Assembly (NCBI RefSeq): GCF_023195885.1
Contig: NZ_JALPKO010000003.1
Coordinates: 1 to 64,000 of the forward strand
Length of the DNA stretch: 64,000 bases
Direction: 5' to 3'
DNA from: Methylonatrum kenyense
GTDB lineage: Bacteria; Pseudomonadota; Gammaproteobacteria; Nitrococcales; Aquisalimonadaceae
A model generated the notes under the pieces. That model saw only the letters and a list, made by a program, of their open reading frames with translations, was not told where the DNA came from and did not search any database. A program made the translations under genes and the position numbers. Positions 18,360 to 27,191 of this stretch are shown here, in pieces (the first letter of the stretch is position 1; each line of letters opens with the position of its first letter).

Positions 18360-18405
18360 TTTTGCTTGGCCTGACGTACCTTCGGTCCAACAGGGCCAAG
18401 CAAAA
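18360..18405. repeat. Family 2 hairpin repeat, copy A
   Basis: Left arm TTTTGCTTGGCC and right arm GGCCAAGCAAAA are perfectly complementary over 12 pairs. They enclose a 22-base core starting TGACGTACCTTC and ending GGTCCAACAG. The core is shared with the other copies while the arm sequence is different. Confidence 0.85.
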
Positions 18406-18510
18406 TCTTCCACTGTCCCTGCCTCGCCGCTAATGCTGTCCCCTCGTCCGGACTTGAGCCACAGAGCCCGACTCCATCGGGACGACGAACGCCATCGAGT
18501 CTTGCGTTGA

Positions 18511-18591
18511 GTGCTGGGTGAGGACAAGTTTTTTCCGGACCTGTTGGACGAAGGTACGTCAGTCCGGAAAAAACTTGTCCTCACCCAGCAC
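18511..18591. repeat. Family 2 hairpin repeat, copy B (perfect 30-base arms)
   Basis: A perfect inverted repeat with arms of 30 bases (18511-18540 and 18562-18591), the inner part TTTTTTCCGGAC / GTCCGGAAAAAA. The 21-base loop is the reverse complement of the family core (CTGTTGGAC .. AAGGTACGTCA). The outer arm begins GTGCTGGGTGAGGACAAG. Both strands could fold into a very stable cruciform or hairpin. Confidence 0.9.
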
Positions 18592-18652
18592 GGGGCTTGG
18601 CACCCGACACCCGGCGTCACCCGGTACCCGGCACTTATTCAGGTGCCGGTGA

Positions 18653-18950
18653 TCAGTTCAGCGGTGCCGGCTTGACGTCGAAGGCGATGCAGATCCGCTC
18701 CTGGTCGGCCTGGAACGGGATGGTCCGGTGGAACACCGAGGACGGGAAGAAACACACATCGCCGACCTGCAGCGGTGCCAGCTTGGTGGGGAAGTCCTCG
18801 TGCTTCTGCGGATAGCGGTCGCCGTGCATGCTCAGTTCCATGCAGCCCTCTTCGCGGCTTGCCGAGCGCTCCGGGATCGCCAGGTAGACCGAGCCGCTGC
18901 TCCAGCCATCCTCGTGGATATGTGAATCCAGATAGCCGCCCTGGCGAATC
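18653..18950 (-). pseudogene. Truncated copy of the TPR/2OG-oxygenase C-terminus
   Basis: The reverse strand encodes about 97 residues nearly identical to the last residues of the complete gene at 21302-22912 (shared RQGGYLDSHIHEDGW, HGDRYPQKH, FFPSSVFHRTIPF). The DNA is also closely similar along the whole stretch. It lacks the TPR region and the first part of the catalytic domain, so it is not expected to be functional alone. The open frame continues upstream into the remnant of another gene. Confidence 0.85.
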
Positions 18951-19062
18951 GCCAGACGAAGGGTTGCCGAAGCAATTACGCAGCGCAATGGCCATCGCCT
19001 CGACCACCTCAGGCGCCACCGGGGTTGGGGGCGTTATGATCCAGATAAACAGGGGCTGGCAT
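18951..19062 (-). pseudogene. Remnant of a cysteine desulfurase N-terminus
   Basis: From an ATG at 19062, with AAGGAG upstream, the reverse strand reads MPAPVYLDHNAPNP. After a one-base shift it reads VAPEVVEAMAIALRNCFGNPS. These match the start of NifS/IscS-type cysteine desulfurases (YLDHxATTP and FGNPSS). The gene stops matching at about 18950, where the oxygenase fragment begins. It is thus both frameshifted and truncated. It follows the DsrE-like gene, so a sulfur-transfer pair probably existed before the deletion. Confidence 0.75.
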
Positions 19063-19092
19063 GGTGGAAGGCTCCTTATGACTCAGGTGGGA

Positions 19093-19437
19093 CTAGAACA
19101 CCAGCACCTTGTCGGCCTGCTTGGTGGCTTCAGCCAAGGCATCCATAGTGCTGCGCTCGGCGCCCTTCACCACCTCCTCATCGGTAAGCCCGCGGGCATC
19201 CATACAGGTGCCACACAGCAGCACGCGGCCCTTGGTAATAACGCGCCTGACCATGCGCTCGGCGTTGTAGAAGCCGTCCGGCGTCTTCTGTCCCGCCTTG
19301 GCACCGGACACCGCATCCCCCATCAGGAAGACGGTGACCTCTCCCTCGCGCTTCAGCAGCGCATGGGCCAGACGCAGGCCGTTGTACAGGCGTTCCGTAC
19401 CGTAGGGGGGATCGTTGATGATGATGAGTGTCTGCAT
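19093..19437 (-). CDS. DsrE/TusD-like small sulfur-relay protein
   Basis: 114 residues of the DsrE/F fold, starting MQTLIIINDPPYGTERLYNGLRLA. Two cysteines, Cys75 and Cys78 in CGTC, sit in the loop where related proteins carry persulfide sulfur. It is probably a cytoplasmic sulfur carrier or a component of sulfide/persulfide handling; the exact partner is unknown. It is divergent from an ArsR-rhodanese regulator and upstream of a broken cysteine desulfurase, both of which fit sulfur metabolism. GGAGAT lies just before the ATG. Confidence 0.85.
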   Translation of the reverse strand: MQTLIIINDPPYGTERLYNGLRLAHALLKREGEVTVFLMGDAVSGAKAGQKTPDGFYNAERMVRRVITKGRVLLCGTCMDARGLTDEEVVKGAERSTMDALAEATKQADKVLVF

Positions 19438-19455
19438 GGCATCTCCTTGCTAACA

Positions 19456-24580: not shown

Positions 24581-24667
24581 TGGTGCCGGGAGCGAGAATC
24601 GAACTCGCACTCCCTCGCGGGAACCGGATTTTGAGTCCGGCGCGTCTACCAGTTCCGCCATCCCGGC
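24581..24667 (-). tRNA. tRNA-Leu (anticodon CAA)
   Basis: 87 bases on the minus strand with encoded CCA and a long variable arm. The anticodon region ACTCAAAATC gives CAA, which reads TTG. Acceptor GCCGGGA/TCCCGGC is perfect. Confidence 0.96.
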
Positions 24668-24715
24668 AACGGGACCCAGAGTATAAGGACGTGGCCTGCC
24701 CGCGCCAAGGATGTC

Positions 24716-25747
24716 ATGCAACGCAGTGATTTCAGCTACCACCTGCCCGAGGACCTGATCGCCCAGGCTCCCCTGGACCGACGCAGCGATGCCCGCTTGC
24801 TGCACCTGGACCCGACCGGTGCCTGCGCCGACCGCCTGATTCGCGACTTGCCGGCCTTGCTTGATCCCAGGGACCTGCTGGTGTTCAACGACACCCGCGT
24901 GATCCCGGCGCGGCTGCATGGCGAGAAACGGGACACCGGTGGCCGTATCGAACTGTTGGTGGAACGGGTGCTGGACGATCATTGCGTGCTGGCCCATCTG
25001 CGTGCCAGCAAGGCGCCGGCGGCCGGCACATGGTTGCTGCTGGAAGGGCAGGTCAATGCCGAGGTCACTGGCCGACAGGAAGCCCTGTTCGAGGTCCGGT
25101 TCACCGAGCCGGTACTGTCGGTGCTGGATCGACACGGCCATATGCCGCTGCCGCCCTATATCCAGCGTGACGACACCACCGCCGATCGCGAACGCTACCA
25201 GACCGTTTTCGCCCGCGAACCCGGCGCCGTGGCGGCACCCACCGCCGGACTGCATTTCGATCAGGCGCTGCTGGATGCGCTGGCCGAGCGGGGTATCGCC
25301 CGCACCGCGGTAACCCTGCATGTGGGCGCCGGCACATTTCAGCCGGTGCGGGTGGAGCGCATCGAGGAGCATGTGATGCACGCCGAAATCGCCCAGGTCT
25401 CGGTCGAGACCTGCGAGGCGGTGGCGGCCTGCCGTGAACGCGGCGGGCGCGTGATCGCGGTTGGCACCACCAGCGTCCGCAGCCTGGAAACCGCGGCGGC
25501 GGGCGGCGTTCTGCAACCCTATTCCGGGGAAACCCGTCTGTTCATCACGCCCGGCTACCGCTTCCGGGTGGTGGACCGGCTTCTGACCAATTTCCATCTG
25601 CCGGAATCGACCCTGCTGATGCTGGTCAGCGCATTTTCCGGCCGCGAGGCCGTGCTGGCGGCCTACCGGCACGCGGTGGAACAGCGCTACCGCTTTTTCA
25701 GCTATGGCGATGCGATGCTGCTGGACCGGGTGGAGGCGCCGGCATGA
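24716..25747 (+). CDS. queA: S-adenosylmethionine:tRNA ribosyltransferase-isomerase QueA
   Basis: 343 residues. It moves the ribosyl part of SAM onto 7-aminomethyl-7-deazaguanine in tRNA, making epoxyqueuosine. Typical segments are [19 protein letters not shown], and [16 protein letters not shown] precedes the ATG closely. It overlaps tgt by four bases (ATGA), the usual queuosine gene order. Confidence 0.97.
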
Positions 25748-26859
25748 GCTGCATGGGTTTCGATGTGCTGGCGCAGGATGGCGCCGCCCGGCGAGGCAGG
25801 CTGCAGTTCCCGCGGGGGAACGTCGAGACCCCGGCGTTCATGCCGGTGGGGACCTACGGTACGGTCAAGGCCCTGACGCCGGAGGAAGTGTCGGCCAGCG
25901 GCGCCGAGATCCTGCTCGGTAACACCTTTCACCTCTGGTTGCGTCCGGGGACGGACATCATCGCCGCGCACGGCGATCTGCACGATTTCATGCAGTGGCA
26001 GGGACCGATACTGACCGATTCAGGCGGCTTTCAGGTGTACAGCCTGGGCAAGCTGCGCAAGATCAGCGAGCAGGGCGTGACCTTTCGTTCGCCGGTGGAT
26101 GGCAGCCGGGTGTTCATGGGGCCGGAGGAGTCCATGGCCGTGCAGCGGGCGCTGGGCAGCGACATCGTCATGATCTTCGATGAATGCACGCCCTATCCGG
26201 CGGATCATGACACGGCTCGGCAATCCATGGAGCTGTCCCTGCGCTGGGCGCAACGCAGCCGCAGCGCGCACGATAACAGCGATGCGGCGCTGTTCGGCAT
26301 TGTCCAGGGCGGCATCTACCCGGACCTGCGCAGTCGTTCGCTGGACAGCCTGCAGGAGATCGGTTTCGACGGCTACGCGATTGGCGGCCTGGCGGTCGGC
26401 GAACCCGAGCATGAACGGGAAATGATCCTGGACCATCTGCAGGCGGCCCTGCCGGCGGACCATCCCCGGTACCTGATGGGTGTTGGCCGACCTCAGGACA
26501 TCGTCGAGGCGGTGCGTCGCGGGGTCGACATGTTCGACTGCGTGATGCCGACCCGGAATGCCCGCAATGGCTACCTGTTCACGCGTAACGGCATGCTGCG
26601 CATCCGCAATGCCCGCTTTGCCGACGACACGCGTCCCATCGAGGAGGGCTGCGGTTGCTACACCTGCCGGCACTACAGCCGGGCTTACCTGAAGCATCTG
26701 GACAAGTGCAACGAGATGCTCGGCCCCCGGCTGGCGACTATCCACAATCTGCACCACTACCAGCAGTTGATGCAGGGGCTCCGCGAGGCGATCCGCGAAC
26801 GACGGCTGGACGCCTTCGTCCGCGATTTCTACGAGGCGCTTGATACACCGGTGCCTTAA
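25744..26859 (+). CDS. tgt: tRNA-guanine transglycosylase Tgt
   Basis: 371 residues. It swaps guanine-34 for preQ1 in tRNAs with GUN anticodons. Visible are [10 protein letters not shown] with an active-site Asp, FDECTPYP, the substrate pocket GGLAVGE, and the zinc site CGCYTC plus a following His (residues 300-330). It overlaps queA. The TAA stop lies in CCTTAAGGAAACAC, the first bases of a family 1 repeat, so the insertion is exactly at the gene's end. Confidence 0.97.
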
Positions 26860-26885
26860 GGAAACACAGATTTATTCCCGCGCCC
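26857..26885. repeat. Family 1 element, single end at the tgt stop codon
   Basis: TAAGGAAACACAGATTTATT then CCCGCGCC is one element end. TA is its first dinucleotide and also part of the tgt stop. No matching right end is found before yajC. Confidence 0.75.
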
Positions 26886-26955
26886 CGTGTTGACTGAGCA
26901 ACACCAGACGCAGCCTTGCACTAGCCCTGATACTGTCGGACCAGTACCCGGCCCC

Positions 26956-27040
26956 GTGCCGAGGGAGGACAAGATTTTTCTCCGGACTGACGTACCTTCG
27001 GTCCAACAGGTCCGGAGAAAAACTTCTCCTCCCCCGGCAC
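26956..27040. repeat. Family 2 hairpin repeat, copy C
   Basis: Arms of about 31 bases (26956-26987 and 27010-27040), inner part TTTTTCTCCGGAC / GTCCGGAGAAAAA, nearly all paired. The 22-base core equals that of copy A. The outer arm GTGCCGAGGGAGGACAAG resembles that of copy B. Confidence 0.88.
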
Positions 27041-27145
27041 TCAGCGGCGACTGGCATGGTGGTGGTTGTCCGCAAAGCCACCGGCCGCGCGGTTTTGGCC
27101 CGAACGAAGCAACACAGTCTGCAGCCTGCTAGGGACAGTGGAAGC

Positions 27146-27191
27146 TTTCGGCCGGCCCTGTTGAACCGGAGGTTCGTCAGGCCGGGCGAAA
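27146..27191. repeat. Family 2 hairpin repeat, copy D
   Basis: Arms TTTCGGCCGGCC and GGCCGGGCGAAA, paired at 11 of 12 positions, around a core in reverse orientation (CTGTTGAACC .. GGTTCGTCA). It is flanked on the left by GGGACAGTGGAAG. Confidence 0.8.

Follow-up and report, generated by a model that had tools for sequence, protein, structure and literature searches.

Palindromic interspersed repeats of Methylonatrum kenyense are probably read as folded single strands of DNA

Computational analyses were conducted on a family of hairpin repeats in the bacterium Methylonatrum kenyense. The stretch under study, called the window here, was the first 64,000 nucleotides of contig NZ_JALPKO010000003.1. 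Four copies of a hairpin with a constant core and changing but complementary stems had been predicted in it from the letters alone. All four were present at the predicted places, as judged from a core pattern, a covariance model (R1) and the fold. We consider it probable that these copies are units of a large interspersed palindromic repeat family that resembles repetitive extragenic palindromic (REP) sequences and bacterial interspersed mosaic elements (BIMEs), and that a putative protein reads them by shape as folded single-stranded DNA (ssDNA). The copy number, the alternation of unit types, the covariation, the strand asymmetry, the sharing of sites with homogenisation within species and the scarcity in two congeners were demonstrated. 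We infer the mobility and function of the family: the strand would act as DNA and not as RNA, a protein would bind it, and such a protein would once have spread the family. The units of the window and their parts were as follows.

18280-18303, plus strand: left arm of a type A unit alone, a truncated copy that ends at CAAG.
18340-18425, core strand plus and better-folding strand minus: type B unit (R1, 98.4 bits, and fold).
18372-18393, plus strand: core of the preceding unit, TGACGTACCTTCGGTCCAACAG (core pattern).
18426-18509: long linker of 84 nt, from type B to type A unit.
18510-18592, minus strand: type A unit, arms 18511-18540 and 18562-18591 perfectly complementary over 30 nt.
21143-21170, plus strand: right arm of a type B unit alone, a decayed copy (assigned by eye).
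26955-27041, plus strand: type A unit (R1, 90.9 bits; also matched on the minus strand by a second model, R2, E 1.4e-7).
26988-27009, plus strand: core of the preceding unit (core pattern).
27042-27125: long linker of 84 nt, from type A to type B unit.
27126-27211, minus strand: type B unit with the variant core TGACGAACCTCCGGTTCAACAG (R1, 90 bits, and core pattern).

The R1 search of the window gave precisely four places at low E-value, and these were the four hairpin units. A degenerate 22-nt core pattern was found with 0 mismatches at three of the four copies, and it gave 0 matches in 100 dinucleotide shuffles of the window. The core was not constant. The copy at 27126-27211 carried TGACGAACCTCCGGTTCAACAG in place of TGACGTACCTTCGGTCCAACAG, and there was more variation genome-wide, with compensation in the inner stem. 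The hairpins were also longer than originally predicted, since the outer arms paired too. With these arms, the units measured about 74 nt in type B (GGGCCAGTGCAAG...CTTCCACTGNCCC) and about 86 nt in type A (GTGCCG..GAGGACAAG...CTTCTCCTCCCCCGGCAC). A strong fold was predicted for the units on either strand. The arms had been thought to match almost perfectly, and the mid stems were indeed largely paired: 12 of 12 pairs in 18360-18405, 30 of 30 in 18511-18591, all pairs in 26956-27040, and all but one G.G mismatch in 27146-27191. However, certain positions across the family were regularly mismatched; for example, 77 of 90 units had C.C where the AAG/CTT foot would pair. In the unit 18510-18592, whose core (18541-18561, minus strand) had lost one base, all four of the usual mismatch sites were repaired, and private letters of the left arm had matching partners in the right arm. 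The gap in the sister species that corresponds to the single arm at 18280-18303 held a full type A unit.

The family was not confined to these four copies. The core pattern with up to 3 mismatches was found at 22 places in this genome (G000), against 1 for a reversed-pattern control. R1 was built from 23 aligned units (alignment A1), and it gave 61 hits in G000, corresponding to 31 units in 20 sites. As the units are palindromic, most were hit on both strands, and the stronger strand was kept. In the sister species (G002), R1 gave 71 hits at E up to 0.01, at 63 places by hand count in 38 sites, a list in which a few units are truncated where a contig stops. Over 59 genomes, this one included, R1 matched G000, G002 and, more weakly, G054, a genome from outside the order. 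The other two congeners, G001 and G003, had no R1 match at E 0.01. BLAST with the window region showed that G001 holds half of a type B unit, the other half missing, which R1 does not report; this half ends at another repeat, directly after a UvrA-like C-terminus. The same comparison gave no unit match in G003. Over 369 genomes of the class, with 12 first-look candidates scored per genome, R1 matched only in this genome and G054. A GTDB-wide pattern scan, in which the window's own genome and close entries may be absent, gave 18 stretches. Sixteen were in one metagenome-assembled genome (MAG), Ectothiorhodospiraceae bacterium CSBr16_16, which we take to be G002, and the other two were chance hits without a hairpin by eye. 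Phage or plasmid carriage was rejected: viral contigs gave 0 hits with the strict pattern, 0 with the G054 pattern and 2 with a looser core pattern, neither with a hairpin by eye, and blastn gave no match of the units to plasmids or phages. No description of this hairpin family was found among the open-licence PMC papers listed.

In A1, 16 of 31 pairs varied on both sides, in 91 cells compared to a shuffle mean of 36 and at most 24 for slid partners. Among the 709 cells, 91 had changes on both sides and 6 on one side (wobble). A larger alignment of 91 units was made from the best 150 of 169 R1 matches by removing opposite-strand duplicates. On these units, tests were performed within one type and one species (A or B, G000 or G002). 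For the mid stem and inner hairpin, none of 500 shuffles reached the observed double changes in any of the 8 tests, so the covariation was not merely the split between A and B. The outer stem exceeded the shuffles only in type B of G000 and scarcely varied elsewhere. These results agreed with the original prediction that the arms change together and that the element is a structured DNA or RNA; a folded single strand or cruciform was favoured over RNA.

The mismatch sites were specific. Of the type A units, 32 of 37 had the foot C.C, which is G.G on the opposite strand, as did 45 of 53 units of type B. Watson-Crick pairing was absent from alignment columns 10/111 in 29 of 36 A units and in 47 of 52 B units, from columns 32/86 in 25 of 37 A units, and from columns 28/91 in 28 of 53 B units. 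These positions bear on a different explanation, in which mutation bias alone is at work: template switching would copy one arm from the other (quasipalindrome correction), and the hairpins would have no function. Template switching is described as creating multibase compensatory changes (PMC8794818), and two units were fully perfected, namely 18510-18592 (4 of 4 sites) and C24:112414 (3 of 3). The repaired mismatch sites clustered in type A units, with the variance reached by 9 of 2000 permutations. However, the clustering was unclear in type B (110 of 2000). The foot and the three column pairs stayed mismatched, although copying would erase them, and a conserved apical loop and conserved foot motifs need constraint. 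Arm copying, which had also been proposed, thus fits a few perfected units but is doubtful for most, because it would erase the specific mismatches that they retain. Template switching can perfect arms; it cannot alone maintain regular mismatches. We regard mutation bias without function as an unlikely account of the family.

The two strands of the units were not equivalent. On the core strand, the non-Watson-Crick cells were T.C or C.T in 146 cases, C.C in 27, G.A or A.G in 5 and G.G in 6 (column pair 22/99 omitted). These pyrimidine-pyrimidine mismatches are therefore G.A and G.G on the opposite strand. The apical loop on that strand was G-N-A in 71 of 91 units, one of which had no core. With DNA parameters, the opposite strand was more stable in 85 of the 88 units of at least 82 nt, with a mean of -29.4 kcal/mol compared to -22.1 kcal/mol. 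With RNA parameters, the same was true in 78 of the 88. C-GNA-G mini-hairpins, as in the GCGAAGC literature, have extraordinary stability in DNA. The mismatches, the loop and the stability point to a strand-specific folded single strand.

The relevant form would be one strand, opposite to the core orientation of the original prediction, as a hairpin of 74-86 nt. It would consist of an outer stem interrupted by G.G or G.A mismatches, the AAG/CTT foot, a T-run and A-run, and a freely changing block of 4-6 bp. These would be followed by a 2-bp step beside a bulged base, an internal loop containing TT, the apical stem and, mostly, a G-N-A triloop. The protein would recognise this folded single strand, as a lagging-strand template or an extruded hairpin, by its shape and a few bases. 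A protein that reads the fold would be expected to leave the stem letters free while the shape, the specific non-Watson-Crick positions and short motifs are kept. The arms would be complementary mainly because selection favours the fold (or the quality of the substrate), and template switching in replication would occasionally perfect a copy. TnpA-REP is described as binding folded ssDNA strand-specifically, with stem mismatches that matter for the E. coli enzyme (PMC8266576).

A structured RNA repeated through the genome, such as a 3' untranslated region stabiliser, an RNase III site or a small RNA, would also show covariation, by selection on the transcript. It would agree with the strong fold on either strand, with the result obtained with RNA parameters, and with the many sites that lie downstream of genes by crude open reading frame (ORF) calls. 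However, the orientation of the units alternates, so that the transcript of a pair has one unit in the wrong sense. G-U pairs were nearly absent: of 2691 cells, G.T accounted for 22 when read on the core strand or 38 when read on the opposite one. In the Rfam search of window positions 12000-34000, no family reached the gathering score except one tRNA. Given the inversion of paired units and the near lack of wobble pairs, an RNA role is less likely than a DNA role, and we judge it rather improbable.

The layout of the units followed a rule. Units were single or in arrays of up to 4 at the 20 sites of G000 and the 38 sites of G002. Types A and B alternated in orientation, inverted to one another, with two linker classes. 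The (-)(+) junctions measured 20-22 nt in 10 of 10 cases, and the (+)(-) junctions 66-92 nt in 17 of 20, the remaining three being 50, 114 and 358 nt. The 114-nt junction involves a hit truncated by the end of a contig and is 84 nt with a longer hit, and the 358-nt junction contains another repeat. Exceptions were six same-direction junctions of 28, 101, 124, 147, 245 and 21 nt. This junction rule is the alternation rule of BIMEs. The units were intergenic by the crude ORF calls in a check that covered the G000 units except C23:215775, and we read the few calls inside genes as over-extended or spurious ORFs. No recurring gene was seen beside the units in the flanks fetched, which were part of each genome; these showed nothing beyond pairs of orthologues, ordinary paralogues and spurious ORFs that cover the repeats themselves.

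The facing of A(+) and B(-) at a fixed distance, like element ends, would also suit miniature inverted-repeat transposable elements, that is, deletion derivatives of an ordinary insertion sequence (IS) with A and B as ends and the hairpins as terminal or subterminal repeats. The finding of complete units in two congeners, and not in two others, is consistent with such elements. However, no A(+)...gene...B(-) arrangement was present in the unit lists of G000 and G002, and the flanks fetched held no recurring transposase-like protein. Alternating arrays and single units were common, and no target duplication was readable, as the flanks of empty sites did not align. An origin from an ordinary insertion sequence is improbable.

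The sites were compared between the two species, with G002 stretches chosen for carrying elements. At 18 of the 20 sites here, at least one flank adjoined an element in G002, and at 14 both flanks were on one G002 stretch. At the tgt-yajC site, G001 and G003 had short intergenic regions with no element. At C26:122401, G002 was without the hairpin yet kept a short CCCGTGCCG stretch, so that loss is as likely as absence, and at C25:163854 the G002 flanks were on two contigs. The units at orthologous sites had an identity of 0.64-0.92 over 14 hand-made pairs, one of which (C25:87974 with C179:6252) is possibly not a true pair of counterparts; three pairs were at 0.91-0.92. The means between species for all pairs of the same type were 0.82 for A and 0.77 for B, so same-site units were mostly no more alike than others, and a simple conservation of each copy in place was rejected. 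In addition, the stem TTTTTTCCGTCC/GGCCGGAGAAAAA was carried by 13 of 25 type A units of G002 and by no aligned unit of G000. With sites shared between the species, same-site units mostly no more alike than others and favourite stems in each species, the sites appear old, and the unit sequences are exchanged or replaced within each genome. At L172 (G002:C94:1952), the flanks of one unit matched the flanks of two G000 sites, C13:1980 and C27:14423, suggesting a possible chromosome rearrangement with its breakpoint at the element.

A kindred family was found in G054, with 25 copies of a pattern defined by a GCA loop and up to 3 mismatches. R2 was built from 14 of these 25 copies (alignment A4, with one misplaced row and one row with a deletion excluded) and gave 69 hits in G054, both strands counted. 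The better-folding strand had the same layout: GAAG, T-run, changing stem, 2-bp step with TT, inner hairpin, A-run, and CTTG or CTTC. The inner hairpin had a GCA loop in most pattern copies and CCC or four-base loops in others. The stems varied but stayed complementary (CCAGG/CCTGG, TCGCG/CGCGA, CAGCG/CGCTG and TCTGGC/GCCAGA). Over the 369 genomes of the class, with 11 first-look candidates scored in each, R2 matched only G054 and this genome, the latter at the type A unit 26955-27041 of the window on the predicted strand. The 367 genomes without an R2 match argued against chance similarity of long hairpins. In the stretches of G000 and G002 that carry elements, 39 of the 46 R2 matches lay on the predicted strand and the remaining 7 on its complement. 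By this resemblance, the two families are likely linked by common descent or by the same kind of recognition. G321 and G211, relatives of G054 from its genus and family, gave no match in the R2 search. Neighbours common to G054 and this genome (UvrB-like, UvrA-like and Pal-like, named by eye) were rejected as a link, since most of those located lay kilobases from the unit. Their number was close to chance expectation by a rough estimate; in this genome, the distance from one unit to the 3' end of a UvrA-like gene was about 0.3 kb or less.

We also considered a broader proposal. The hairpins may represent a class of DNA element, either mobile or chromosome-organising, that is recognised in its folded single-stranded form almost purely by shape, through a fixed pattern of purine-purine mismatches, the GNA triloop and short foot motifs, while the stem letters are free. 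Its enzyme would not be a REP-associated tyrosine transposase (RAYT), it would be present in at least two orders of one class, and its units would stand at fixed sites and be homogenised within species. We hold this only tentatively and regard it as doubtful as a whole. A RAYT was rejected as the mobiliser, because its presence did not track the family. The sole Y1/RAYT-like gene of this genome, L023 (G000:C29:126334-126666), adjoined GTAGGGTGCATTAAGCGAAGCGAATGCACGC, a separate REP-like inverted repeat by eye. Sequence resembling GTAGGGTGCATTAAGCGAAGCGAATGCACGC was seen by eye at other sites and in G001.

Several points weigh against the reading of the units as folded ssDNA spread and bound by a protein. 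The 91-unit alignment was fitted to R1 and so leans toward the R1 fold, and the copies are related, so that cell counts are not independent events. The GNA loop was missing in 20 of the 91 units. Under R2, the perfected unit 18510-18592 scored 33.7 bits on the core strand compared to 30.9 bits on the opposite strand. RNA parameters favoured the same strand as DNA parameters, which leaves room for an RNA role. The sites appeared old rather than recently mobile, and neither a target-site duplication nor a clean empty site was readable, as the intergenic flanks did not align. Y1 transposase genes (PF01797) numbered 1 in G000, 0 in G002, 0 in G001 and 1 in G003, showing no correlation with the family; since the G002 MAG is 97% complete, a Y1 gene may have been missed there. 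No mobiliser enzyme was found in this Y1 search of G000-G003 or in the flanks fetched. Given the half unit of G001, a genome that holds remnants at most, the family predates the G000-G002 pair. The class-wide searches scored 11-12 first-look candidates in each genome and may have overlooked weak families elsewhere.

Other repeats were also observed. When up to 3 mismatches were allowed, the window held 9 termini of a second repeat family, with the terminus GGAAACACTGATTTATTCCCGCG, and 100 shuffles held 0. Their positions were as follows.

77-99: GGAAACACTGATTTATTCCCGCG terminus.
9377-9399: GGAAACACTGATTTATTCCCGCG terminus.
26860-26882: GGAAACACTGATTTATTCCCGCG terminus.
32984-33006: GGAAACACTGATTTATTCCCGCG terminus.
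33131-33153: GGAAACACTGATTTATTCCCGCG terminus.
49358-49380: GGAAACACTGATTTATTCCCGCG terminus.
54671-54693: GGAAACACTGATTTATTCCCGCG terminus.
55184-55206: GGAAACACTGATTTATTCCCGCG terminus.
59801-59823: GGAAACACTGATTTATTCCCGCG terminus.

The termini at 32984(+) and 33131(-) resembled the two ends of an element of about 170 nt. A related inverted-repeat element, with ends GAGGAAGCACTGATC... and GAGGAAACACTGAG..., was found within the apical core of type A or type B hairpins, or interrupted an arm. Its copies were the following.

L155, about 7800-8200: GAGGAAGCACTGATC/GAGGAAACACTGAG element.
L183, about 3260-3570: GAGGAAGCACTGATC/GAGGAAACACTGAG element.
L185: GAGGAAGCACTGATC/GAGGAAACACTGAG element.
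L192, 1549-1600 (G001): GAGGAAGCACTGATC/GAGGAAACACTGAG element.

It looked as if the hairpins might be targets of this element, by analogy with the IS elements described as targeting REPs (PMC1525189). The window also contained a direct duplication of 298 nt, 90% identical, at 18653-18950 and 21302-21599. The second copy was within a TPR/2OG-Fe(II) oxygenase gene, in its C-terminal part, and the first resembled a partial copy and had no Pfam match. Elsewhere in the genome, the unit C24:187375 (L145, about 6330-6376) adjoined a ACTGTTTATTTGTACAGTAT inverted repeat upstream of a long gene; by eye, this inverted repeat resembles an SOS-type operator.

Finally, the family was compared with known systems. 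Folded bottom strands of integron attC sites are recognised with their structure conserved and their stem letters varying. The units here shared a fixed structure with a varying stem, and 54 of 88 units had GTTRRRY in the region of the core. However, on inspection of the alignment, GTTRRRY was in the common core and lost in other core types, and no paired RYYYAAC box was seen at the foot, so attC was rejected. Rho-independent terminators differed in that the T-run here was in the 5' arm and the A-run in the 3' arm on both strands, with none 3' of the hairpin. The ends of IS200/IS605 elements are likewise irregular hairpins read on one ssDNA strand. In contrast, the units here were inverted to one another, no conserved guide tetranucleotide was identified in the family, and no Y1 enzyme was found in G002, the genome with most copies.

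The closest likeness was in layout. Like REPs and BIMEs, the units were dispersed, extragenic by crude ORF calls and palindromic, alternated between two unit types with two linker classes, and had an imperfect stem and strand-specific features. REP heterodimers with spacers mostly of 20-100 bp have been described (PMC3733652). However, GTAG REPs are palindromes of 20-40 nt, compared to the hairpins of 74-86 nt here. GTAG was within 30 nt of either aligned-unit end in 15 of 88 units, there was no GTAG tag at the foot, no cognate RAYT was found, and the RAYT-like gene showed no correlation with the family. The stem sequence was freely variable between copies, and most units had a GNA apical loop, which also differs from REPs. 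The same source describes CGTC-tagged REPs as palindromic and apparently without a dedicated transposase (PMC3733652). The units here were palindromic, no dedicated transposase was found, and the better-folding strand carried CGTCA in a majority of units. However, CGTC was apical rather than terminal and lacked conservation: of the 90 units with a core, 51 carried TGACG on the core strand. The original prediction had allowed that a known family might explain the hairpins fully; on the tested features, neither REP nor IS200/IS605 did so, and only the layout was BIME-like.

REPs and BIMEs are common in bacteria, yet their spread and their reader are understood chiefly where a RAYT is present. 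The roughly 90 natural variants of one folded strand are a ready-made mutational scan for its reader. Two species that share sites, and mostly not unit sequences, offer a direct test of palindrome homogenisation and template-switch repair in nature. Membership in the GTAG REPs, the CGTC REPs, the IS200/IS605 derivatives or the attC sites fails on the tested features, yet the architecture of the family is that of BIMEs.

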